DNA of 64,000 nt from NCBI GenBank assembly GCA_012517355.1, contig JAAYVD010000112.1:1-64000 (forward strand), read 5' to 3'. The notes under the pieces are model-generated. The model had not been told where the DNA came from. It worked only from the letters and a program-made list of their open reading frames with translations, and made no database searches. Source of the stretch: Candidatus Rifleibacteriota bacterium (GTDB lineage: Bacteria; Muiribacteriota; Ozemobacteria; Ozemobacterales; Ozemobacteraceae). Positions 33,976-47,964 of the stretch are shown here, piece by piece (the stretch's first letter is position 1; every line of letters begins with the position of its first letter). The position numbers were made by a program, and so were the translations under genes.

Positions 33976-35172
33976 ATGTTCGCCCTCAAAGGATTTTCCG
34001 AATCGGATTTCGAGGTGCTGCGCCGGTATCTGACCCGGCAGACGGCGACCAAGAACCAGGTGTTGATGGAGGCGGGGAAACCCGCGTTGCAGATGTTCCT
34101 CATCGAGGAAGGCTCGGTGAAGATCGTGCAGCGCCCGGCGAAGGATGCCGGCGACGACGTGGTGCTGGGGGCGGTGAAGGCCGGCGGTTTCTTCGGCGAG
34201 GAGGCGCTGCTCGGCGAGCAGCAGATCTACGCCAACACGGCGGTTTCCATGGAGAACACCACCCTGTTCACCCTGGGCAAGGAAGGCCTGCAGAAGCTGA
34301 TGGTCGAGGCGATGGGGGTCGGCACCAAGTTGCTGCTGGCGTTGACCAAGTCCTACCGCGAGGCCCTGGCCACCCCGGAGCAGATGGCGAAGGTGCTGAC
34401 CTTCTACAGCCCCAAAGGCGGAACCGGCTGCACCACGTTGGCGGTCAGCTTCGCGTGCCAACTGGCCCGGCTGCGCAAACGGGTGGCCTACATCGACGCC
34501 GACCTGCAGTTCGGCAACGTGTCGCTGCTGATCGGGGCCCCACCCGCGCTGCACCTGGCCCGCCTGATCCAGAAGGAGACCTCGCTGACCTTCGATCGCA
34601 TCAAGGGGTACCTCCATCGGAAGCACGAAGTCGACTTCCTCTTTTCCCCCGACCAGCCCCAGGAAGCCGAGATGATCTCGCGTTCCAACCTCAACCAGGT
34701 GCTGCAGGCGATCGGGCGCCAGTATGACTTCATCGTCGTCGACACCTCCTCCCAGATCGACGACCACACCCTCCTGCTGTGGGACATGGCCGACGTGCTG
34801 GCCCTCGTCACCAACGCCGACCTGCCGGGGCTGACCCGCATGCACCGGCTGTTCAAGGTGATGGGCCGGTTGAACTATCCCAAGGCCAAGTTCGCCTTGC
34901 TGGCCAACCGGTTCGGCGATGGCCAGGAGGCCTGCCTGGCGGAACTGCGCAAGCTGCCGGTGGGCCACGTGCAGACCCTGCAGGCAGACCACGCCAACGC
35001 CCAGGCGGCCGTCATCGCCGGCGTGCCGCTGGCCCTGCAGGCCCCGGCGTCGCCCGTCACCAAGGCCCTGGAGGAACTCCTCCGCTACCTGCTGGGCGAG
35101 GAGGCGATCGCCCGCTCGCAACAGAAGGGCGGCATCTTCTCGCGGCTGAAAACCCTGATCGCCGGCGCCTGA
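33976..35172 (+). CDS. cNMP-binding-like domain fused to a TadZ/CpaE-type ATPase
   Basis: 398 residues. Residues ~1-130 form a Crp-like cyclic-nucleotide domain (LIEEGSVKIV, GGFFGEEALLG). The usual phosphate-binding arginine is absent: the segment reads QQIYANTAV where RxA is expected. Residues ~138-380 form a ParA/MinD-superfamily domain with the deviant Walker A SPKGGTGCTTLA. The second lysine is replaced by Cys, as in TadZ/CpaE-type proteins that position pili or other machines at the pole. FIVVDTSS is the switch II region. It may link a cyclic-nucleotide-like signal to localisation. It starts 21 bases after the STAS gene behind GGAGGAG. Confidence 0.85.
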   Translation: MFALKGFSESDFEVLRRYLTRQTATKNQVLMEAGKPALQMFLIEEGSVKIVQRPAKDAGDDVVLGAVKAGGFFGEEALLGEQQIYANTAVSMENTTLFTLGKEGLQKLMVEAMGVGTKLLLALTKSYREALATPEQMAKVLTFYSPKGGTGCTTLAVSFACQLARLRKRVAYIDADLQFGNVSLLIGAPPALHLARLIQKETSLTFDRIKGYLHRKHEVDFLFSPDQPQEAEMISRSNLNQVLQAIGRQYDFIVVDTSSQIDDHTLLLWDMADVLALVTNADLPGLTRMHRLFKVMGRLNYPKAKFALLANRFGDGQEACLAELRKLPVGHVQTLQADHANAQAAVIAGVPLALQAPASPVTKALEELLRYLLGEEAIARSQQKGGIFSRLKTLIAGA

Positions 35173-35186
35173 GCTGAGGAACCACG

Positions 35187-36035
35187 ATGAACAAACAGCC
35201 GGAGGCGGTCGGGACGGCCGATCGGCCTCTGTCGCTCGGGCAGGGGGTCACCTGGGTCGGCTTCTGGGACTCCGAGGCCGGCCTGCGCTGCAATCCCTAC
35301 CTGGTCTGCGACGGGGACGAGGCGGTCCTGATCGACGGCGGCAGCCGCCCCGACTTCTCGACGGTGATGATGAAGGTCTTGCAGGCGGGGGTTTCGCCCC
35401 ACCAGATCAAGGCCCTCGTCTATTCGCATTTCGACCCCGACCTGTGCGGCAGCCTCCCCAACCTCGAGGACATGATTCGGCGCCCCGACCTGGTGCTGAT
35501 CTCGGCCGCTCCCAACCACATGTTCATCCGCCACTACTCGACCACCTCCCGGATGGTCTCCCTGGCGGAAACCGGGTTCCGGTTCCGGTTCGCCAGCGGG
35601 CGGGAACTGCGGTTCACCCCCACCCCGTTCGCCCACGCGCCGGGCAGCTTCGTCACCTTCGACACCGCCACGGCGATCCTGTTCACCGGTGATCTGTTCG
35701 GCAGCCCGGGAGCGGGCGACAGCATCTTCCTGTCCCTGACCCCCACCTGTCACACCGACCACGACCGGGCCCATTGCCCCGAAGGGCGGGGAACCTGCCC
35801 CCTCCATGACCTCGCCCGGTTCCACAAGCAGGTGATGCCTTCGACCCTGGCTTTGCGGCACGCGATGGCCACGGTGCGCACCATCCCCTTCAAGGCCCTG
35901 GCCCCCCAGCACGGGGCGGTCATCCGCGAGGAGAAGGACGCCGAACTGGCGATCCGGACCCTGGAGACGCTCGAGAACGTCGGGATCGACGGGGTGGTCG
36001 CGCAGGACCCGCAGTTGACCGACCGGAGTTACTGA
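35187..36035 (+). CDS. Metallo-beta-lactamase-fold protein of the diiron (ODP/flavodiiron-like) type
   Basis: 282 residues. Candidate metal ligands are H81, D83 and D85 (SHFDPDLCG), H150 (FAHAPG), D169 (FTGDLFGS) and H242 (PQHGAV). The HxDxD core with distal H/D/H resembles the diiron oxygen-binding ODP and flavodiiron families, but Asp replaces the usual Glu and Leu follows where His is common. A Cys-rich loop (residues 188-205: CHTDHDRAHCPEGRGTC) is unusual. ODP relatives sense oxygen or NO for chemotaxis or signalling, so this may be the redox sensor of the operon. It starts 14 bases after the ATPase gene. Confidence 0.82.
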   Translation: MNKQPEAVGTADRPLSLGQGVTWVGFWDSEAGLRCNPYLVCDGDEAVLIDGGSRPDFSTVMMKVLQAGVSPHQIKALVYSHFDPDLCGSLPNLEDMIRRPDLVLISAAPNHMFIRHYSTTSRMVSLAETGFRFRFASGRELRFTPTPFAHAPGSFVTFDTATAILFTGDLFGSPGAGDSIFLSLTPTCHTDHDRAHCPEGRGTCPLHDLARFHKQVMPSTLALRHAMATVRTIPFKALAPQHGAVIREEKDAELAIRTLETLENVGIDGVVAQDPQLTDRSY

Positions 36036-36037
36036 CC

Positions 36038-37027
36038 GTGACCGGCCCGATCGACTTCGACGAGATGCTGGCGAAGGTCGCCCCCGACAACCCGAATCGT
36101 TCCTTTCTGCTCAAGAGCCTGATCGAGATCCGCGCGGGCCAGGACGACCAGGCCCTGATGACCAGGCTGATGACCGGCCTCGTGATGAAATACGCCGAGA
36201 GCGAGCGGCAGCTGAACCGGCTCAACGCCGAACTGCGCGAGAAACAGGAGCACCTCGACGCCGACCTCAAGGCCGCCGCGGTCATCCAGACGGCGCTGCT
36301 GCCCAAGCCCCTGCCCGCCGCCTCGAACGTGCGCGCCGCCTGGAAGTTCGTTCCCTGCCAGAGCATCGGCGGCGACGTGTTCCTGCTCACGCCGCTGGGC
36401 AAGCGGTATCTGATGGTGGCCGTCGTCGACATCAGCGGTCACGGGGTACCCTCGGCCATGGTGACCGTCTCGGTCTGCCAGTTCCTGCAGCCCCAGGCGG
36501 GAACGGTCTTCCAGCCCGGGGCCGGCCCCGACGGCGCGGTGGTGCCACCCGGCCAGGTGCTGGCCTCGCTCGACCGCGAGTTTCCCTATTTCCGTTTCAA
36601 GAAGACCTTTTCGATCTTCTACGGCGTGCTCGACCGCGTCACCGGCCGGTTCACCTTCGCCAACGGCGGGCACCCGCAACCCTTCCTGCAGACCCCCGAC
36701 GGCGCCCTCACCACCCTCGAGGAGCACGGCCCCATCATCGGCATGGGCCTGGGCTCGACCTTCCCGGAAGGGTCGCTCACCCTCTCCCCCGGCAGCCGCC
36801 TGACCTTCTACTCCGACGGCCTGACCGAATGCCGCAACCCCTCAGGGGAGCTGTTCGGTGACGACCGGGTGCGCGACCTGCTCGCCGCGCACCACGCCCT
36901 GCCCCTCCCCGACCTCGCCGCCGCGATCCATGCCGGGGCCAGCAGATTCGTGGCGGGAGCGGGTTTTCCCGATGACTTCACCCTCGTCCACCTGGAGTTC
37001 GCCGGCCCGCCCGCCTCCCCCGCTTGA
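36038..37027 (+). CDS. RsbU-like PP2C/SpoIIE serine phosphatase
   Basis: 329 residues. Residues ~1-85 are helical and may form a dimerisation stalk. The rest is a SpoIIE-type PP2C domain: SIGGDVFLL and VVDISGHG give the first metal ligands, YSDGLTE and DDFTLVHLEF the last. It should dephosphorylate the STAS protein encoded three genes upstream. There is no sensory domain of its own, so input may come from the neighbouring metallo-beta-lactamase-fold protein (inference). The start is a GTG two bases after the previous stop. Confidence 0.93.
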   Translation: MTGPIDFDEMLAKVAPDNPNRSFLLKSLIEIRAGQDDQALMTRLMTGLVMKYAESERQLNRLNAELREKQEHLDADLKAAAVIQTALLPKPLPAASNVRAAWKFVPCQSIGGDVFLLTPLGKRYLMVAVVDISGHGVPSAMVTVSVCQFLQPQAGTVFQPGAGPDGAVVPPGQVLASLDREFPYFRFKKTFSIFYGVLDRVTGRFTFANGGHPQPFLQTPDGALTTLEEHGPIIGMGLGSTFPEGSLTLSPGSRLTFYSDGLTECRNPSGELFGDDRVRDLLAAHHALPLPDLAAAIHAGASRFVAGAGFPDDFTLVHLEFAGPPASPA

Positions 37028-39909
37028 GGGACGGCGACCAGCAGCACGTCCCCGCCATGGTCACCGCCACGCCAGCGGCATCGCCGGGGATGTTTCCTCA
37101 GACGGCCTTCCCCCACCCCTCCGGCACGGTTCGGCAGTTCGTCGCCGCCCGGTGGGAGTTGCAGGGAACCGGTGGGAAACCGCCCCAACACCCGCGAGAT
37201 CCGGGCCGCCCGGCGACCCGGGTCAGTGGCCCCGGCCGGCCGTGGCCGGAAGCGGGTTTATGGCGTGCGGGCTGGCTGGCCTTGTCACTGGTGTGCCTGA
37301 TCCTGCTGGCCGACCCCGCCCTCGTCGCGGCTGCCGAAGGCCGGGGAACGGAGGGGGACCAACTGCAGACCGGTCCCTGGTGGGGCATCGGGCCGCTGGC
37401 GGCGACCGCCTCGCCGGCCGGTCTGCTCTCTTCAGCGGGCAGGCCAGACCCGGGGCGTGATCATCCCGGCCGGGACGGCCCGACGCGCTGGCGCGAGGTT
37501 CCCGCCTGGGCCGACCCCGGGGAGATCCACGACGTGGCCGGAGAACTGGCCACGGGCAACGGCCCCGCCTCGGCCGCGGCTTTCCAGGTTCTCTCCAGCC
37601 CGGCCGGCGGCGAGGCCTGGTGGTATGTCAGCGCGGACGACCTGTTCGAAGGCTGGGTGAACGGGGAACGGGTGGCCTGGCAGGACCGGCCCCTGGACTG
37701 CCGGCCCCGGCGACGGGCGATCCGGATCCGCTTGCGCCCGGGGGCCAACACGGTCTTCCTGGCCCTGGCGAACGTCGATGGGCGTTTCTGCTTCGCCAGC
37801 ACGTTCGAGGCCATCCCCGACCTCCCCGGGGAGGTGGTCCGGCTGCGGCGGACCATCGGGCGGTGGCCCCGCGTGTTCGACCGCGAGGCCGCCCTGGCAC
37901 TGCTCGGGTATCTGCGGGGAACCCCTCTGCCGGAGTCGGCCTTTCCCTATTACGATTCGGAGTTCATGCGGTCGATGACCGAACCCGGCGAAGAGATCGG
38001 GCGGCTGCAGGACGACCTGGACCAGCCGGGGACCGGGGCCCTGCGTCCGTCGAGGTTGTTCCGGCTGGCGGAGGTCATTCGCGACGCCGGGTTGGCGGAA
38101 GAGGCGTCGACCTGGCTGCTCCACCTTCTGGCCGGGCGATTCGCGGCCTCTCTCGCGGGCGTGGCCGGGGGGACGGTCCCAGGCAGGGATCCGGCGGGGA
38201 AGGCCGTGGGGGCGGACGGCCCCTCGGCGGGGCGCGAAACGGATGATTCGCGCCGCCATCCGTGGGGGCAAAGGGGCCCTTCCGACATCGGGCCGGTCGA
38301 CCCCCTGGTTGGGCGTGAGCGGGGTGGCACGCCCCGCCAACCGGGGCGCGGAGGGGACCCGGACGAGATGGGGCCGGACCGGACGGCGGCGGATTTCGGC
38401 CCGGTCGTACAGCAGACGCCCTGGCTGCTGGCGGGACCGGGGGCCGACCTGACGCGGGCGGTGGCCGCCAGTCTGCTGGGGCCGGACGGCACCGTCGACT
38501 GCCGCCGCCCCCTGCCGGGTCTCGCCGGCCAGAGGTCAGACTCCCTTCCCGACCCTCGACCGGATCGGCCCCTTCGCGATGCCCGAAGCGGGCGTTTCGC
38601 GCCGCCATCCGTGGCGACCAAGGGGCCCTTCCGACATCGTGTCGGTCGGCCCCTTTGCGGTGCGCGAAACTGGCGTTTCGCGCCGCCATCCGTGGCGGCA
38701 AAGGGGCCCTTCCGACATCGTGTCGGTCGGGACGAGGGAACGGAGCCGGGGGCGGGCGCCGAACGCGCCCGGGGTGCGGATTCCTGGCGGTTGGTGGCCT
38801 CCTGGACGACGGAGACGGGGCCCCACGACATCGCCGACGTGGTAGCCGGGCCGACCGACGGGCAGGCGGTCCTGCTCACGCGGACGCTCTTCGCCTCCGC
38901 CGAGGTGGACGCCTGGGTCTTCCTGGCCGCCGACGACTGGCTGGACGTCTGGCTCAACGGCCGCCACCTGTTCGCCCCCAACGGGCGGCCCAGCGCCTTC
39001 CTCCCCCGCCAGCAGGTGGTGAAGGTGCGTTTGCGGCGGGGGGTGAACCCTTTGCTCCTGCGGGTCGAGAACCATGCGGGGGCCTGCGCCTTCGCCCTGG
39101 AGGTGCATCCGCTGGCCGACTGGCCGGCGCGGAGCGCTCGGCTGGTCCGGCTCATCCGGTCGTTTCCGCCCGCCTTCGACCCGGACCTGACCGCCGGGGT
39201 GCTCCCCTTTCTCGCCTGGCCGCGTCTTCCCCGTCGCCTGGCGGACGCCTATCGCGAGCTGACCTTCCACCCGATCGCCGACCCCGAGGCGGAGATCCGG
39301 TTCCTGCAGCAGGCGCTGCGCACCGCGACCGAGCCGATAGCCCTCGATGCCGCCCGGTTCCGCCTGGCCGAACTCTGCGGGCAACTCGGACTGGGTGGGA
39401 TCCTGGGGCGGCACCTGCGGTCCCAGCGGGACCGGGCCGGACTCGACGGGCCCCGCCTGTGGCGCGGGGCGCTGGCGGTGTTCCACTCCGGCCGGTTCGC
39501 CGAGGGGATCGGGGAGCTCCAGCGGGTGGCGGACCTGTTCCCGGAACTGGGGGCCGCCCGCCTGGGCCTGGCCGAGGTGCTCTCCTGGAGGGCCTGGCAG
39601 ACGCTGGATTACCGGGTGCGGGACCAGGCCTGGGAGGCCTGGCAGCGGGTGGACCGGGCGGACCGCGCCCGACCGGCCGCCCTGGCCGCCCAGGCCGGCC
39701 TGTGGTACCTGTTCGCCCGGAAGGACACGGCCAACCGGTGGTTCGAAGCCGCCCTGCGGGCTGACCCGCGGAACCTGTCCGCCTGGCTGACCCGGTGGGA
39801 GGTCCGCTCACCCTTTCCCGACCAGGCGGCGGAAGGGGCCTATCTGCGGGAGTTCGCGGTCTGGGACGACCGGACCGCCCGCGAATGGTACCGGGAGATC
39901 GAACCGTGA
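37024..39909 (+). CDS. Secreted, internally duplicated beta-sandwich/helical repeat protein carrying three palindromic-repeat inserts
   Basis: Up to 961 residues. The start is uncertain: TTG at 37024 overlaps the phosphatase stop; ATGs at 37057 and 37090 are alternatives. An export segment lies at residues ~79-103 (WLALSLVCLILLADPALVAA). Two copies of one module follow. Each has a beta-sandwich with the pattern ...DLFEGWVNG... / ...DWLDVWLNG..., then VR(I/V)RLR.G.N. Each then has a ~100-residue helical part (RLxRxI...PxxFD ... EIxxLQ ... RLAE). The C-terminus (~815-961) is TPR-like. Dispersed repeats insert at residues ~399-426 and ~515-569 between the modules. Its stop overlaps the cyclase GTG, so it is probably the periplasmic partner of the cyclase. 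Confidence 0.75.
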   Translation: MRDGDQQHVPAMVTATPAASPGMFPQTAFPHPSGTVRQFVAARWELQGTGGKPPQHPRDPGRPATRVSGPGRPWPEAGLWRAGWLALSLVCLILLADPALVAAAEGRGTEGDQLQTGPWWGIGPLAATASPAGLLSSAGRPDPGRDHPGRDGPTRWREVPAWADPGEIHDVAGELATGNGPASAAAFQVLSSPAGGEAWWYVSADDLFEGWVNGERVAWQDRPLDCRPRRRAIRIRLRPGANTVFLALANVDGRFCFASTFEAIPDLPGEVVRLRRTIGRWPRVFDREAALALLGYLRGTPLPESAFPYYDSEFMRSMTEPGEEIGRLQDDLDQPGTGALRPSRLFRLAEVIRDAGLAEEASTWLLHLLAGRFAASLAGVAGGTVPGRDPAGKAVGADGPSAGRETDDSRRHPWGQRGPSDIGPVDPLVGRERGGTPRQPGRGGDPDEMGPDRTAADFGPVVQQTPWLLAGPGADLTRAVAASLLGPDGTVDCRRPLPGLAGQRSDSLPDPRPDRPLRDARSGRFAPPSVATKGPFRHRVGRPLCGARNWRFAPPSVAAKGPFRHRVGRDEGTEPGAGAERARGADSWRLVASWTTETGPHDIADVVAGPTDGQAVLLTRTLFASAEVDAWVFLAADDWLDVWLNGRHLFAPNGRPSAFLPRQQVVKVRLRRGVNPLLLRVENHAGACAFALEVHPLADWPARSARLVRLIRSFPPAFDPDLTAGVLPFLAWPRLPRRLADAYRELTFHPIADPEAEIRFLQQALRTATEPIALDAARFRLAELCGQLGLGGILGRHLRSQRDRAGLDGPRLWRGALAVFHSGRFAEGIGELQRVADLFPELGAARLGLAEVLSWRAWQTLDYRVRDQAWEAWQRVDRADRARPAALAAQAGLWYLFARKDTANRWFEAALRADPRNLSAWLTRWEVRSPFPDQAAEGAYLREFAVWDDRTAREWYREIEP
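38219..38299 (+). repeat. Dispersed palindromic repeat, copy D (inside CDS, in frame)
   Basis: About 81 bases. GCGCGAAACGGATGATTCGC then GCCGCCATCCGTGG and AAAGGGGCCCTTCCGACATC match the consensus. Read in the host gene's frame it gives SRRHPWGQRGPSDIG. Confidence 0.85.
38567..38649 (+). repeat. Dispersed palindromic repeat, copy E (inside CDS, first of a tandem pair)
   Basis: Begins GGCCCCTTCGCGATGCCCGA and ends with the perfect hairpin CCGACA-TCG-TGTCGG. Copy F follows head-to-tail with a period of 81 bases. Confidence 0.92.
38648..38730 (+). repeat. Dispersed palindromic repeat, copy F (best-structured copy)
   Basis: GGCCCCTTTGC (38648-38658) pairs perfectly with GCAAAGGGGCC (38698-38708). 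Inside are stem GCGCGAAAC/GTTTCGCGC with loop TGGC (38662-38683) and stem CGCCA/TGGCG with loop TCCG (38684-38697). A 3' hairpin CCGACA-TCG-TGTCGG follows at 38712-38726. The whole is a three-way junction plus hairpin. Confidence 0.95.
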
Positions 39910-42900
39910 CCCGCGCGGCTCCCCCGGGCACCGCCCCGGTCGTTCCCCCGGTCGCTTCCCCGGTCGCTTCCCCGGTCGTGTCGCCTTCCGCTTCCCCGGA
40001 CACGCGCCTGGGCGTTTCCCCGGCCGACTCCCCGGCCCCCCTCCAAGCGCCCACCGCTGTGGACGCCCCCGCCGCGTTCCCGGCGGACCTGTCCCCGCTC
40101 CCGACCGACCCGTCGTCGGCCGGCGCCCCGGGCGGCCCGGGGCGGGGGAACGGGCCGCCGGTTGCGGACCGGGCCCAGGGGTCCCCGCCCCGCGGGCCGC
40201 GCGCCGCCTGGATCTCACTGGTCATGAACTGGGGGGTCCCGTTCCTGCTGAGTCTGCTGCCGCTGGTGGTCCTGCACCTCGCGGCCGGAGAGGAGCAGGC
40301 CAGGCGCGGAGCGGATGCGCGCCGGGAGCGGCGGGAACGGGTCCGCCTCCAGGCCGACCATCTGCGCCGGGCCTCGTCCTTCCCGTTCTGGGCCGAGCGG
40401 GCCGCCCGCCTGCTCAAGCGGGGCGCCCTGGCCGGGCTGGCCGGGACCCAAAGCCGGGGGCAGAACCCCGGCCACGCCGCCGCCCCGCCCCACACCGGGG
40501 ACGTCTCCGGAATCGGCCCACCCCCAGCCAAGGGCGAAGCGGCCGTGCCGATCCGTCATCCGTGGCCCCCACCAGGAGATCCTTCAGACATCGGGTCGGG
40601 TGGGACGGGCCATTTCGGCGGACCGCGGTCGCCCCCTTCCCCAACCGGAACCGCCGCCACTCCCGACCCCTCATCGGCCGAAATCGGGAGGCCGGTCGGG
40701 GTGCCGTTTTCCGGCGGGCGGCCAGGCCGGTTCCTCGTGCCCACCCCCGCCCCGGGAGGCGGGCCGGCAACCAACCGCGCCGGGGTGGCGGAAGCTCTGG
40801 CCAGGGGCCTGGGGACGGCCCTGCGTCGCCTGCAGAGATCGGAACCCCGGCCAGGGGCGGCCACGCCGTTTCGCGGCAGGCGGGGCGGCCAGGGCATCCT
40901 GCCGACCTCTGAGCGGTCGAACCTGGCGGGGTGCCAGGTATGGGCCGTTGCCTTTCCCACCGGGAATCCGGCCGAGGGGGTGGAACCCTGCCGGGCCCCT
41001 CCCCTCCGCCAGGATTTCTCCGCCCTGATGACCGGCCTGTTGCAGGACATCGGCCGGCAGCAGGCGATCGAGGCGGAGGAGGGAAAGGCGGCGCGCCACG
41101 CCGGGGGGGGCAAGAATGACGAGAGCGGTGGGGGAAGCGAGAGGCCGGCCGGGCCGTTCGACGCCACCCGGCTGCGGAGGCTGGAGGCAGGCTTCGGTGA
41201 GGGGTTGTCCGCCGACCTGTTCACCGGCAGCCACCGCGGAACCGGCTTTCCCGTGCTGTTCCGCGGAATTCCCCACATCATGGTCTGGGACCTCGTCTTC
41301 TTCCGGGAACGGACGGTCGGGGCCTTCCTGGTGCTGCTGCCGCTGCCCGACGAGGCCGGCCACGCCGCGCTGCAGTTGACCCTGCGGTACTGGCCGAAAG
41401 GCGGGTTCCGGCCGGCGTTTCTGCCCATGCCGACCGAGCGGCGGGGGATCCTGCCTCCCCCCCTGCTCCACCCCGACCTGGTCCGGGCCCCCGTCCTGGC
41501 CGACATCGAGCGGCTTCGTCGCCAGATGCGGATCTGGCAGCCGGCCGGCACCCGGTTCGAGGGCACCCGGGTGGGGCTGCTGGCCCCCTTCACCGGCCGG
41601 CTGGTCCGGTTGCCGGCCGCCGCGGGATGGTGGGGCATGGTCACCCCCCTCGATCCGCTGACGGGACACCTGGGACTGCTGGTCGGACGCTTTCCCGACC
41701 TGCCCCCCTCCGCCCTGGATCTGTTCCGCGGGATGGCCGACATGGCCTGGATCTTCGTCTGGATCATGGTCGCCATCCGGGCCGCCCTGGTGGGGACGCG
41801 CCCGGCCGGCGTCCGGCGTCAGGCCACCCTGTGGCTGCTCGGCGTCACCGGCATGCCGGTGGTGCTGGGGATCATGGTCGGCGTCCAGCTGAACGGAGAC
41901 CTGCGTTCCAACCGGCTCGAGCAGCTCGAACGCGACCTGGAACGGGCGATGGGCGACCTGGAGACCGGCGCCAACCGGCTCAACGACCGCATCGTCCAGC
42001 AGTGCAAGGAGCGGTTCCATGAGGGGGGGTTCCGGGCGGCCCTGCGGCAGGCCATCGCCAACCCAGCCGCCCGGGAAGGGTTCCTGCGCGACCTGGCCGC
42101 GGGCTTCCGGCGGCACGGGCTGCCCATCTCGGGCCTCCGGGTGATGGGACGGGACGGCCAGGCCATGGAATCCTTCGCGCCCTGGCTGCGGCAATTGTCC
42201 ATCCGGCAGCTGCAGGCAAGCCTGCAGGATGCCTGGGACCTGTATCTCGCCGGGCCCGATGGGGGCCGGAAAAGGCCGACCACCACCCTCGCCAGGTGGC
42301 AGCAGAACGTCTTTGCCGTCAAGGGGGCCGAGGAACAGCCGCTCGCCTGGCAGTCGGGCAACCGCAAGTTCTTCCTCTGGCGGATGATCATACAGGAGAA
42401 GGGCCGGCCGTTCTGCCAGGTGGCGGTGGTCTGGAGCCACGAGAAGCTGTACCGGGCCTACCTCGAGCGGGCGGTGCAGGGACCGGGGCTGTTCTCCGGC
42501 CGGACCGACCTCTCCCTGTCGGTCTATCTGCCGCAGGGGGACGACCTCGAGGAGGTTGGTGCCTCCGCCAATCTGGTGGCCGGGCGCGAGGATCTGCGGC
42601 GAGTGGCCCGGGCAGCGGTGCGGGCGAAGATGCGCCGGATCACGGAGGATGCCCTGACGGTGGGTTTCCCGAGCGAGCGCCTGCCGGGCTACGTCTTCCT
42701 GGGCCAGGCGTCGCTCGCGCCCCTGCGGGCGGAGCTGTGGCGGGAATGGCTCGGCATCGGCATCGTCACCCTCGGGCTGTTCGCCCTCGTGCTCGCGGCG
42801 GCGCGGCTGCTGGGGTTCCGGCTGGCCGCGCCGGTGGTGCGCATGACCGCGGAACTGCGGCGGGTGGCCGCCGGAGACTACGCGGCCCGGGTCGGCGACG

Positions 42901-45900
42901 ACCGCCGGGACGAGCTGGGACAGGCCGGCCGGGCGCTGGACCGCATGACCGGCTGGCTGGCCGAGCGGCAGGAGATGAGCCGGTTCGTCTCCTCCCAGGT
43001 GCTGGACGTGGTGGCCGCCGGGGACTACCGGGGGGCCATGGCCGGCACCCAGCGCGAGGTGGCGATCCTGATCTCGGACATCCGGTCGTTCACCACCCTG
43101 TCGGAGGAGCATCCGGCCCGGGATATCTTCGCCCTGGTGAACGGGCACATGGAGGCCATGACCCGCGCCATCCAGGCGGAAGGCGGGATGATCGACCGGT
43201 TCGTCGGGGACGCCGTGCAGGCGGTCTTCTACGCGGCCGAGGCCGGAACGCCGGGGGTGGGCGGCCCCGCCGACCGCGCGATCCGGGCGGCCCGGGCGAT
43301 GCGCAAAGCGCATCTGGCCAGGATCGAGGCCCGCCGGCGGGAAGGGTTGTTCCCCTACGAGATCGGCATCGGCATCGAGCAGGGAACGGTGGTGGCCGGC
43401 GTCATGGGCGACGGGCAGGCCCGGCTGGACTTCACGGTGCTGGGAGAGCCGGTACAGGCCGCGGCCGAACTGGAAGCCGGCTCGAAGCACGGCACCGCCA
43501 CGAAGATCATCGTCTCCGACCTGGTCAGGCAGACCGTTGGCGAGAGTGTCCCGTGCCGCCGCCTGCCCGACGGCCACCCCGGCTGGGAACTCGCTTCGCT
43601 CGAGGAGGGCGCTCCCCCCGCCTCCCCCGCCTCCCCCGCCGTCCCCCTTCCCGATCCCGCCCCCATCACGCCAGCCCGGCCTCCCCGCCTCCCCCGCCCT
43701 GATCCCCCCACCTTCCCATCCGCCCACCACCGCACCTCCCACCTTCCCTCCCTCGCAAGGCCATCATCTCCCCAACCCGCCACGCTCCCCGCGCCTCACC
43801 CCCCGCCTCCCCACCTCGCCGCCTCCCCCTTTCCCTCCTACGGCGGCCTGCTTCCCCTGCTGGTTCTGTGGCTGGTGCCCGCCGGCCTCCTCTTTCTCGG
43901 GGCGGCGGCCCTGCGACAGGCGGGAATCCGCCAGGCGATCGGCGAGGCGAGGGACCAGGTGCGGGAACGCCTCGGCCGGCTGGAGGGGGAGATGCGGCCG
44001 GAAACCCTGGCGGCAAGGCTGCTCGCCGGAATCGTCATCGGGGCCGGCCACCCTCGCCGGGGAACGCCGGCCGGCCCTCTGAACCCGGAGGAAGCCAACC
44101 GCCTCGGACGGGCGTTGGCCAGCGCCAACGCGAAATCTGCCGGCGCGGCGACGACGGCCAGGCCGGGGAGGCCGTCATCCGGCCGCTTTTTCGTCCTCTC
44201 CGCCCCCGCCGACATCGATCCGGGATCGGCGTGGGGGACCGAATACATGCCCAGGATCCGGCCCGCCCAGGTGCGGCTCCTGTTCCAACGCGCCCGGGGC
44301 GACTTCCCCCTGAGCCTCGACGAGGTCCGCCGATTCGCCACGATCCTCCTCATGATGGAGATCGACCCCCTGTTCACCCCCAATCGCTCCTATTTCCGCC
44401 TGTCCGACTGGTTCTACCGGTGGTTCCAGCGCTTCTTCGTCGGGCCTCGCGGGGGAGCCATCGGCCACCACGGGTTCATCCGCAACGCCCTGCTGTCCCG
44501 CGGCAACCTGCTGCCGATGCGCTTTTGCGAAAGCGACTGGCTGATGTTCTGGCTGCCGGTCAGGCGGCAGCCCGGTGCCGGTGATGGCGGAAACCGGACC
44601 GCCCAGGAGGGGCCGGGAACGGACCGGGGACTCCCGAGAACCGGCGGCACTGGCCTCTCAGCCCGTTCAAGCCGGGATGAGGGGGATCCTGACGGGGACG
44701 GGCCCCGCCCGGAGGAAGCCCGCCAGGGGGGCATCAGCCAGGCCACGGTCATCGGAAGCGGATCGCCCGGGGCAATCCCCGCCGGCACCCCGCCAGGGCC
44801 GTACTCCCCGCCAGCCGGGGACCGGGCGGCTGCCGCGGAGGGGCCGGTGGCGGGGCTGGTATTGGCTTTCCTGCCCGGCAAGGGGCTGGCACCCGAGGCC
44901 GGCTACCGATTCCTGGCCCAGGACCTGGCCCGCCAGGGGTTTCCCGCCGCGATCGCCTGGAAGGCCGGTCGGAGACGCCGCCTCGTCCGCACGGGGGCCT
45001 TCCGGAAAGCAGGGCTGTCCGCACAAGAACCGGGCGACGCACCATTCACGCTCGAGGAGCGGGCGGGGTGGGTGGTCGGGTCGCAGGTGTCGGGGGGGCT
45101 CCGCCCCGCCCGGGTGTTCCTGGCCCGGGATTGGCACCGGCACCTGCCGTGGTCGGCACACCTGGGGACAGCGGGGATCCTGGCCGCCGGGGGTTGGCTG
45201 CTGCTCGGGGGCTGGACGGTCTGGCGGCTGGGCCGTGGCGAACGCGGGGCCCCGGCCTCGTTGCGGGGCCTGCTGATGGGAACCTTCGCCCTGGTGGTGG
45301 TTCCCACCCTGGCCGTCGGGTTCTTCGGGGTCGAGCGGTCGCTGCTGGAGCGGGCCACCCGGCTGCGGGCCGACCGGGCCCGCGACCTGACCGACCTCCT
45401 GGCGGCGGTCGACCGCAGCCAGGACCTGGCCCTCACCTTCGCCTGCAACCTTGTGGCGACCCAGCTCGACCGGCCGGAGTTCCTGGCCGACCTGGCCCGG
45501 TTCGAGAAAGGATGGCCACCACCCGACCGCCCCGATGCCCCGCCTCCGATGCGCTCCCTCCTGGTGGCCTGCCAGTTCCTGGGGCTGTGGCCGCGGGCCG
45601 CCGAACTGGTGTCGGTCACCGGCCTGACCGGCGGCAGCGGGCACGACCAGCGGTTTTTGGAAGCCCTGCGGTGGTTGTGGAACCGCAACCTGTCCGCCCG
45701 GCACGCCGCGGCGGGGGCCGACCTTCCCGTCTCGCAGCGGCGCGCGAACCTGGTGGTGGGGACCCAGGTGGAGGAGTTCGGAACGATCCTCCGCAGCCTG
45801 ATGCCTCCCGCGGGTCTCGCGGCCTGGATGAGCGCGCCCCGCGCGGTGGTGTCGGTCAGCTCCTCTCTGGAGGAGCCCCAGTTCTTCTCGACCCACCACC

Positions 45901-47216
45901 TGCGCCGGGACGGCATCCCCACCTGGATCGCCGAGGTACAGTTCTCCCAGGGGCCTCTCCTGCGGCTCGCCCTCGAAGACTGGGACCGGTATCTGGCCCT
46001 GGCCCCCCACCCCGGATGGCGGATCGGCGTCTCCAAGCGGACGTTTCCCGGATGGCGGCTGGTCTCCCCCTTCGTATCGACCGACTGGGAACCGGGTCCG
46101 AAACCGGCCGACCCAGGCTTCTACCGGCAGACCCCGACCGTTCGGGGCGAGGAACCCCGAACGACCCTGCTCTGCCGGATGGCCGCCGAGGGCGGGCGGC
46201 CCGCCATCGTCCTTCCCGAGAGACGGGCGACCGGTCGGCTGTTCGCCGCCACGCCGGGTGGGGGGCCCGGCAACCTGCTGTTCTACGGCTCCCTGCCGGC
46301 GGCGGCCATCTTCGACGAGGCCGAAACCCAGGCCGCCGGCCAGCGCGGGCTCCTGCTGGCGCTGGCCGTCCTGGCCGCCCTGCTGGCCGCCGGCGTGGCC
46401 GAGGCCTTCCTGCAGCCGCTGCTCGCCCTGGCCGCGGCCGCCCGCCGCCTGATGGGGCGCGAGTTCACCGCCCGCGTGCCCCAGGACCGGGACGACGAGT
46501 TCGGCCACCTGGCCACCGCCTTCAACGAGATGGCGGCCGGGGTCGAACAGGGGCGGCGGCTCCGGCGGTTCGTCTCCGACTCGGTCCGCGTCGCGGCCGG
46601 GAACCGCGACCGCGCCGCCGCCGCCCGGGCCGGTGAGCACCGGGAGGCGGTCGTCCTGTTCGCCGGCCTCGGAGGGTTCAAGCCCCTGCTGCACACCGTG
46701 CCGCCCACCGCACTGGTCGCCGACCTCAACCGGTTCCTGGCGGGCGCGGCGGCCGCGGTGCGGGCCGAGGGCGGCGAGATCGACAAGTTCATCGGCGAAA
46801 AGGTGCTGGCCGTCTTCCACCCCGACCGCTTCGGGTCGGCCACCGCCGCCCTGGCCGCCGCCCTGCGCGCGGCGACCCGTCTGGCCGAAGACACCCGCGC
46901 CCTGCCGGCCTGGCGCGACCACCCGGTAGGCATGGGCCTGGTGGCGGGGAAGGTCCTGGCCGGCATCCTGGGCACGGCCGAGGTGCGCCTGGAATACACC
47001 GTCCTCGGCGATACCGTCAATCTCGCCGCCCGACTGTGCGACCTCGCGCTCCGGGAGGGCGGCGGCCTGGCCGTCGAGCAGGAGTCGCTGGCGCGGGCGG
47101 ACGCCCTGGCCGACCCCCGGTTCCGACGGCTGGGCGGGATCGCCCTCAAGGGCAAGACCCGCACCGTCGACTGCTGGCTGGCCCCGTCCCTCGGCCGGCC
47201 GGCCGGAACCAGGTGA
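39906..47216 (+). CDS. Two-headed transmembrane class III adenylate cyclase with complementary C1/C2 domains
   Basis: 2436 residues from a GTG overlapping the previous stop (GTGA). Two halves share one plan: TM, large outer domain, TM-TM, outer domain, TM, HAMP, cyclase. TM segments lie at about 102-125, 608-632, 639-665, 949-972 and 1315-1337, 1752-1775, 1789-1810, 2149-2170. Cyclase 1 (~1050-1200) has metal ligands D1058 and D1102 but Q1184 and E1188 where Asn/Arg should stabilise the transition state, and R1098 for the purine Lys. Cyclase 2 (~2245-2400) has G2254 and E2298 in place of the aspartates but keeps K2294, T2365, N2372 and R2376. One composite active site for ATP is inferred. The N-terminus and inter-half linker are Pro-rich. 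Confidence 0.88.
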   Translation: MTRAAPPGTAPVVPPVASPVASPVVSPSASPDTRLGVSPADSPAPLQAPTAVDAPAAFPADLSPLPTDPSSAGAPGGPGRGNGPPVADRAQGSPPRGPRAAWISLVMNWGVPFLLSLLPLVVLHLAAGEEQARRGADARRERRERVRLQADHLRRASSFPFWAERAARLLKRGALAGLAGTQSRGQNPGHAAAPPHTGDVSGIGPPPAKGEAAVPIRHPWPPPGDPSDIGSGGTGHFGGPRSPPSPTGTAATPDPSSAEIGRPVGVPFSGGRPGRFLVPTPAPGGGPATNRAGVAEALARGLGTALRRLQRSEPRPGAATPFRGRRGGQGILPTSERSNLAGCQVWAVAFPTGNPAEGVEPCRAPPLRQDFSALMTGLLQDIGRQQAIEAEEGKAARHAGGGKNDESGGGSERPAGPFDATRLRRLEAGFGEGLSADLFTGSHRGTGFPVLFRGIPHIMVWDLVFFRERTVGAFLVLLPLPDEAGHAALQLTLRYWPKGGFRPAFLPMPTERRGILPPPLLHPDLVRAPVLADIERLRRQMRIWQPAGTRFEGTRVGLLAPFTGRLVRLPAAAGWWGMVTPLDPLTGHLGLLVGRFPDLPPSALDLFRGMADMAWIFVWIMVAIRAALVGTRPAGVRRQATLWLLGVTGMPVVLGIMVGVQLNGDLRSNRLEQLERDLERAMGDLETGANRLNDRIVQQCKERFHEGGFRAALRQAIANPAAREGFLRDLAAGFRRHGLPISGLRVMGRDGQAMESFAPWLRQLSIRQLQASLQDAWDLYLAGPDGGRKRPTTTLARWQQNVFAVKGAEEQPLAWQSGNRKFFLWRMIIQEKGRPFCQVAVVWSHEKLYRAYLERAVQGPGLFSGRTDLSLSVYLPQGDDLEEVGASANLVAGREDLRRVARAAVRAKMRRITEDALTVGFPSERLPGYVFLGQASLAPLRAELWREWLGIGIVTLGLFALVLAAARLLGFRLAAPVVRMTAELRRVAAGDYAARVGDDRRDELGQAGRALDRMTGWLAERQEMSRFVSSQVLDVVAAGDYRGAMAGTQREVAILISDIRSFTTLSEEHPARDIFALVNGHMEAMTRAIQAEGGMIDRFVGDAVQAVFYAAEAGTPGVGGPADRAIRAARAMRKAHLARIEARRREGLFPYEIGIGIEQGTVVAGVMGDGQARLDFTVLGEPVQAAAELEAGSKHGTATKIIVSDLVRQTVGESVPCRRLPDGHPGWELASLEEGAPPASPASPAVPLPDPAPITPARPPRLPRPDPPTFPSAHHRTSHLPSLARPSSPQPATLPAPHPPPPHLAASPFPSYGGLLPLLVLWLVPAGLLFLGAAALRQAGIRQAIGEARDQVRERLGRLEGEMRPETLAARLLAGIVIGAGHPRRGTPAGPLNPEEANRLGRALASANAKSAGAATTARPGRPSSGRFFVLSAPADIDPGSAWGTEYMPRIRPAQVRLLFQRARGDFPLSLDEVRRFATILLMMEIDPLFTPNRSYFRLSDWFYRWFQRFFVGPRGGAIGHHGFIRNALLSRGNLLPMRFCESDWLMFWLPVRRQPGAGDGGNRTAQEGPGTDRGLPRTGGTGLSARSSRDEGDPDGDGPRPEEARQGGISQATVIGSGSPGAIPAGTPPGPYSPPAGDRAAAAEGPVAGLVLAFLPGKGLAPEAGYRFLAQDLARQGFPAAIAWKAGRRRRLVRTGAFRKAGLSAQEPGDAPFTLEERAGWVVGSQVSGGLRPARVFLARDWHRHLPWSAHLGTAGILAAGGWLLLGGWTVWRLGRGERGAPASLRGLLMGTFALVVVPTLAVGFFGVERSLLERATRLRADRARDLTDLLAAVDRSQDLALTFACNLVATQLDRPEFLADLARFEKGWPPPDRPDAPPPMRSLLVACQFLGLWPRAAELVSVTGLTGGSGHDQRFLEALRWLWNRNLSARHAAAGADLPVSQRRANLVVGTQVEEFGTILRSLMPPAGLAAWMSAPRAVVSVSSSLEEPQFFSTHHLRRDGIPTWIAEVQFSQGPLLRLALEDWDRYLALAPHPGWRIGVSKRTFPGWRLVSPFVSTDWEPGPKPADPGFYRQTPTVRGEEPRTTLLCRMAAEGGRPAIVLPERRATGRLFAATPGGGPGNLLFYGSLPAAAIFDEAETQAAGQRGLLLALAVLAALLAAGVAEAFLQPLLALAAAARRLMGREFTARVPQDRDDEFGHLATAFNEMAAGVEQGRRLRRFVSDSVRVAAGNRDRAAAARAGEHREAVVLFAGLGGFKPLLHTVPPTALVADLNRFLAGAAAAVRAEGGEIDKFIGEKVLAVFHPDRFGSATAALAAALRAATRLAEDTRALPAWRDHPVGMGLVAGKVLAGILGTAEVRLEYTVLGDTVNLAARLCDLALREGGGLAVEQESLARADALADPRFRRLGGIALKGKTRTVDCWLAPSLGRPAGTR
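40516..40602 (+). repeat. Dispersed palindromic repeat, copy G (diverged, inside the cyclase CDS)
   Basis: GATCCGTCATCCGTGG and CCTTCAGACATCGGGTCGGG match the consensus; the 5' arm is degenerate. It encodes IRHPWPPPGDPSDIG, in the same frame as the peptide of copy D, in outer domain 1 of the cyclase. Confidence 0.6.
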
Positions 47217-47882: not shown

Positions 47883-47964
47883 GGGCCCTTTGCATGGCGC
47901 AAACGGGTGGTTCCCGCCGCCATCCATGGCGACGAGTGGGAATGGCCGGTCTCGCGTCGGTCGG
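47883..47964 (+). repeat. Dispersed palindromic repeat, copy H (non-coding)
   Basis: GGGCCCTTTGCATGGCGCAAAC then GCCGCCATCCATGGCGAC keeps the 5' arm and second hairpin of the consensus; the 3' part is diverged (CTCGCGTCGGTCGG). Its left edge lies in a perfect 16-base palindrome, GCAAAGGGCCCTTTGC (47878-47893). Confidence 0.7.

Follow-up and report, generated by a model that had tools for sequence, protein, structure and literature searches.

A putative membrane-bound class III adenylate cyclase with two complementary catalytic heads in Candidatus Riflebacteria

Results

Gene organization and domain architecture

The window, a stretch of 64,000 nucleotides of contig JAAYVD010000112.1 (assembly GCA_012517355.1), comes from a Candidatus Riflebacteria MAG. 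On its forward strand a single open frame runs from a GTG start to a stop codon and encodes a predicted two-headed adenylate cyclase (Table 1). The stop of the upstream ORF overlaps the cyclase start by 4 nt (GTGA). An alternative in-frame GTG start at 39795 is possible and would give a protein of 2473 aa. Pfam assigns HAMP and Guanylate_cyc to the protein, each twice, and no other domain. The Guanylate_cyc (PF00211) test returned two stretches (E 2.2e-19), and both heads have cyclase matches in the PDB. In each half a large loop separates TM1 from a TM2-TM3 hairpin and another separates the hairpin from TM4, which is followed by HAMP and the cyclase head. Most halves in the family, including both halves here, have TM1, the hairpin and a TM4 before HAMP by hydropathy, with one TM segment of half 2 falling below the cut-off and read by eye. 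The linker from head 1 to half 2 is rich in proline and alanine. The first-pass annotation of this DNA had described one 2436-residue frame with two copies of four TM helices, HAMP and a class III cyclase, and this description is borne out by the open frame, Pfam and hydropathy.

P2 of half 1 and P2 of half 2 are homologous (hhalign, 98.8% probability) yet strongly diverged, and the halves of a single molecule therefore probably respond to different signals. Neither Pfam nor PDB sequence searches matched P2, and Pfam had no match for P1. An AlphaFold2 model of half-1 P2 is of medium confidence (mean pLDDT 69.8, pTM 0.61). Among its Foldseek matches, almost all to dCache ligand-binding domains, probabilities are near 1 and TM-scores only 0.2-0.4; on this model we tentatively call the region dCache-like.

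Upstream of the cyclase (33976-39909), genes for a cNMP-binding/MinD-like ATPase, an ODP metallo-beta-lactamase-fold protein, a SpoIIE-type phosphatase and a 961-aa ORF lie head-to-tail. The fusion of a cyclic-nucleotide-binding domain to a MinD-type ATPase looks unusual. As this gene set was not found beside the other two-headed cyclases in the relatives fetched, we take the cNMP-binding neighbor as just a hint. The genome has 48 matches to a dispersed GC-rich repeat of about 80-170 nt, which is found in the window at 38217-38734, 40539-40565 and 47903-47929. Its copies fall within coding frames, and the part of the cyclase gene for the extracytoplasmic loop seems to contain a partial one.

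Table 1. Features of the predicted cyclase gene, with coordinates in the window.
Feature	Coordinates	Strand	Basis or remark
Two-headed adenylate cyclase CDS (predicted)	39906..47216	+	2436 aa, GTG start, 4-nt overlap with upstream stop
TM1, half 1 (aa 105-126)	40218..40283	+	hydropathy
TM2-TM3 hairpin, half 1 (aa 610-659)	41733..41882	+	hydropathy
Extracytoplasmic region P2, half 1 (aa 660-947), tentatively dCache-like	41883..42746	+	AlphaFold2 model, Foldseek
TM4, half 1 (aa 948-971)	42747..42818	+	hydropathy
HAMP 1	42819..42947	+	Pfam PF00672, 2 stretches in protein
Cyclase head 1, C1-like (aa 1041-1234)	43026..43607	+	Pfam PF00211, family profile, PDB profile search
D1058, first metal aspartate (Me1), head 1	43077..43079	+	alignment
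R1098 replacing adenine-binding Lys, head 1	43197..43199	+	alignment
D1102, second metal aspartate (Me2), head 1	43209..43211	+	alignment
R1173, phosphate-binding Arg position, head 1	43422..43424	+	alignment
Q1184 replacing catalytic Asn, head 1	43455..43457	+	alignment
E1188 replacing transition-state Arg, head 1	43467..43469	+	alignment
Pro/Ala-rich linker, head 1 to half 2	43608..43838	+	
TM1, half 2 (aa 1312-1336)	43839..43913	+	hydropathy
TM2-TM3 hairpin, half 2 (aa 1753-1809)	45162..45332	+	hydropathy
Extracytoplasmic region P2, half 2, homologous to half-1 P2	45333..46343	+	hhalign 98.8% probability
TM4, half 2 (aa 2147-2169)	46344..46412	+	hydropathy
HAMP 2 (aa 2167-2214)	46404..46547	+	Pfam
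Cyclase head 2, C2-like (aa 2237-2428)	46614..47189	+	Pfam, family profile, PDB profile search
G2254 replacing first metal Asp, head 2	46665..46667	+	alignment
K2294, adenine-binding Lys, head 2	46785..46787	+	alignment
E2298 replacing second metal Asp, head 2	46797..46799	+	alignment
T2365, adenine-binding Thr, head 2	46998..47000	+	alignment
N2372, catalytic Asn, head 2	47019..47021	+	alignment
R2376, transition-state Arg, head 2	47031..47033	+	alignment
K2417, KGK loop Lys, head 2	47154..47156	+	alignment

The catalytic residues are divided between the heads

The catalytic columns were read in the order Me1, adenine Lys, Me2, phosphate Arg, adenine Thr, Asn, Arg and KGK Lys. Head 1 has D R D R T Q E in these columns and is without the KGK Lys, while head 2 has G K E R T N R K. 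The set of two metal Asp, Lys/Thr, Asn and Arg is complete only with both heads pooled. All ten residues named in the first-pass annotation (D1058, D1102, Q1184, E1188, G2254, K2294, E2298, T2365, N2372 and R2376) are as it had claimed. The complementarity extends beyond them to R1098 at the adenine Lys position and to the phosphate-binding KGK Lys, which head 2 has (K2417) and head 1 lacks. R1173 is taken to match R484 of AC5, the phosphate-binding Arg in C1, and K2417 presumably corresponds to C2 K1065. Displacement of the catalytic residues, which the annotation had said would remove the asymmetry, was rejected; the motifs align without a gap to solved bacterial cyclases and the groups are thus substituted in place.

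The split is conserved in a family of two-headed proteins

Domain searches for cyclases in the protein's own genome gave about 89 matches; because these count domains, the number of enzymes is lower. Bacterial strains have been cited with up to 30 cyclase isozymes (PMC9552081). Across 57 related and control genomes, many cyclase matches lie in frames of about 2000-2600 aa. We read 63 distinct two-headed proteins encoded in 21 genomes from nine genera of one family. They are diverse, with heads 33-61% identical to head 1 of the window. The annotation had presented the design as a feature of one gene. It is in fact that of a large family, which has two-gene versions too, and an oddity confined to the window was rejected given frames of the same design in related genomes.

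The annotation had also proposed looking for homologues with the same complementary losses, and the split does recur in these 63 proteins, so it is not due to chance. Both metal Asp are present in every head 1 that could be read there (62/62 for each, one copy being cut by the end of its locus). The Asn is lost from 61 of 63 head 1 domains and present in the other two. Every head 2 (63/63) has the Lys, Thr, Asn, Arg and KGK Lys. Loss of both metal Asp from head 2, as first claimed, holds across the family for Me1, which is lost in 62/63, but not for Me2, where Asp is kept in 35/63, replaced by Glu in 26/63 and by another residue in 2/63. The sole head 2 with the Me1 Asp, in the L071 protein, has lost Me2 instead. 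Head 1 sometimes retains the pocket Thr or the Arg. With these groups and the Me2 Asp of head 2 variably kept, the second site is unequally degenerate across the members. Positions invariant in one head vary in the other, and at Me1 and Asn the entropy is 0 in one head versus 1.5-3 bits in the other. These invariance counts are of related sequences and not of independent events.

Homologues with both heads complete, the finding that the annotation had set against its own claim, number 0 among the 63. The nearest is the protein encoded at L098:5380-11541, whose head 1 lacks the Thr and KGK Lys and whose head 2 lacks the first Asp. Its head 1 (DKDRSNRE) keeps D, D, K, Asn and Arg, possibly an intermediate state. 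At L094/L095 (G015:C314), at least five two-headed cyclase genes lie in a row on one contig. One cyclase, from a MAG labeled "Erysipelotrichia bacterium" (L033, SABV01000032.1), is identical to one in G023, a member of the host family, and the label is probably wrong.

Split-gene versions and homodimer-type relatives

Cyclases of about 1000 aa with one head, fetched from the same family, are mostly encoded by adjacent co-directional gene pairs. In 18 pairs a C1-like gene is followed by a C2-like gene with the same division of roles as in the fused heads. The open frames of C1-like/C2-like pairs touch or overlap in nearly all cases. Two pairs (L045 and L090) have the reverse order with the C2-like gene first. 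These two fall outside the main clades, and a second, independent origin is possible for them. At L047:3647-13526 three cyclase genes are adjacent: a C1-like, a C1-like that has lost only the Asn, and a C2-like. Complete sets (DKDRTNRK or close) are a minority among the one-headed cyclases of the host family. Only complete sets were found in other families of the phylum, where nine domains from five families were sampled (L018-L020, L024, L027, L030 and L111-L113). Genes of homodimer, split-heterodimer and fused pseudo-heterodimer type coexist in one genome, with many paralogues.

Phylogeny of the heads

A tree in which the catalytic columns were masked placed 37 C1-like domains in one group and 37 C2-like domains in another, both apart from the complete domains. 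Support was moderate, with SH-aLRT values of 90 for the C1-like and 82 for the C2-like group in a quick search. A larger quick tree had the same cores with a few one-headed cyclases outside. The head trees show at least 4-5 changes between the fused and split states. For 60 two-headed proteins the tree of head 1 mirrors that of head 2 (r = 0.89, reached in 0 of 2000 permutations). The simplest reading is that one duplication of a homodimeric cyclase gave rise to C1-like and C2-like partners that have stayed together since, with repeated fusion and some fission.

Comparison with mammalian C1 and C2 domains

Profiles were built from 20 head 1 and 20 head 2 domains. As the annotation's comparison with mammalian cyclases predicted, the head 1 profile matches C1 and the head 2 profile C2 of AC5, AC8 and sAC (40-177 for sAC C1 and 321-418 for sAC C2). 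Head 1 also matches the alpha chain of sGC, while for head 2 the better-matched sGC chain is beta1. AC9 is the exception, with its first domain the best match for the head 1 and head 2 profiles alike. The top scores of both profiles are to bacterial homodimers. Given those scores and the Thr at the adenine site, the likeness to the animal enzymes is functional and not one of close descent.

Discussion

We propose that the protein is a membrane-bound pseudo-heterodimeric class III adenylate cyclase whose heads dimerize to form one productive site at their interface, and that its heads arose by a C1/C2 duplication. On sequence evidence we put the probability of this reading at about 0.84. Each half would be a receptor unit in which four TM helices and two extracytoplasmic sensor regions, of which the second is probably dCache-like, connect through a HAMP relay to a cyclase head. 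The two heads would dimerize, most likely within one polypeptide. Head 1 would contribute both metal aspartates with their ions and the phosphate-binding Arg. From head 2 would come the adenine-binding Lys and Thr, the Asn and Arg acting at the transition state, and the KGK-loop Lys. The pseudo-symmetric second site should be dead or regulatory since it is without most catalytic groups. Inputs to two different sensor halves may in this way be combined at one catalytic site. Dimer formation, pairing in cis, cAMP production and sensing are all predicted from the sequences. cAMP is the expected product because Lys and Thr favor ATP. The host genome encodes 24 cNMP-binding domains, plausible receivers of cAMP, and one of the 24 belongs to the gene run directly upstream of the cyclase.

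The heads could instead pair in trans, with head 1 and head 2 of two chains forming a dimer with two complete C1/C2 sites. Receptors with HAMP and dCache domains are usually parallel homodimers, and the split-gene versions imply that covalent linkage is dispensable. However, the repeated change between fused and split states is most readily understood if the two halves function as a unit, and the long linker and second TM set permit pairing in cis, as in the animal enzymes. We consider trans pairing unlikely, though it is the alternative to be taken most seriously. A product other than cAMP, such as cGMP, is improbable. Class III includes guanylate cyclases, and the adenine-pocket positions of head 1 do vary, but the pocket expected to be productive has the Lys and Thr that are invariant in head 2. 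Bacterial class IIIb enzymes use this pair for adenine, and in guanylate cyclases the same positions hold Glu and Cys or similar residues. We give slightly less credence still to the proteins being mostly degenerate pseudo-cyclases that act as receptors or scaffolds, with complete homodimeric cyclases making all the cAMP. Either head alone is indeed without essential groups. Yet in essentially all 63 proteins each required group survives in at least one of the two heads, most of these groups with zero variation, and decay would not leave complementary sets intact. An assembly or sequencing artefact that fused two genes, the frameshift between the halves against which the annotation had cautioned, was rejected and has a negligible chance of being correct: the same genome does hold adjacent separate genes of like kind, but the 63 frames are uninterrupted in 21 assemblies, many independent assemblies have unbroken frames of this design (about 1880-2680 aa), and the fused type forms its own clades.

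The best reading of these sequences is thus an obligate pseudo-heterodimer, predicted in bacteria and convergent with the animal cyclases. The annotation had called it probably convergent, which fits the Thr in place of Asp at the adenine site, the 4 TM plus HAMP design versus 6 TM, and the grouping of the clades with the homodimer-type cyclases of the phylum. A wider picture is conceivable but speculative: a bacterial network independent of eukaryotes and built on C1/C2 cyclases, with dozens of split and fused pairs per genome that have different sensors on their halves and act as two-input gates, perhaps cross-pairing between paralogues, and a degenerate site that is allosteric like the forskolin pocket of animals.

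According to a 2022 review, fused two-headed class III enzymes are unknown in bacteria. We likewise found no bacterial two-headed class III cyclase described in the literature searched, outside of which lay subscription papers and unannotated database entries. No frame longer than 1250 aa was among the best 150 matches listed for 120 genomes of one cyclase-rich phylum, nor among the best 150 listed for 14 genomes of two other phyla, and these three phyla make up a limited control for two-headed cyclases elsewhere. The family would alter the accepted account of the fusion as a eukaryotic invention. It makes the step from a homodimer to an animal-type enzyme testable in living sequences and provides a receptor design with two inputs from which cAMP tools could be built.

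Among known systems, the bacterial homodimers CyaC, CyaB, OaPAC and Rv1625c are the best sequence matches of both heads. They have the full residue set in each monomer and two sites, whereas here neither head is complete, and none of the 63 two-headed proteins has the full set in both heads. Soluble guanylate cyclase shares with the split gene pairs the use of two chains, alpha and beta, with complementary roles, but is a eukaryotic cGMP enzyme with a haem sensor and other pocket residues. The soluble adenylate cyclase ADCY10 also has tandem heads with divided roles. It is cytosolic with its heads close together, while in the bacterial protein a complete receptor module lies between them. Like the mammalian AC1-AC9 (class IIIa), the bacterial protein is one polypeptide with C1 followed by C2, the metal Asp in C1 and the Asn, Arg and Lys in C2, and one productive and one degenerate site are expected in both. 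It lacks their metazoan-type traits: two membrane domains of six helices are replaced by 2 x 4 TM with large predicted extracytoplasmic sensors and HAMP, and the class IIIa Asp at the adenine position is Thr, as in all 63 head 2 domains.
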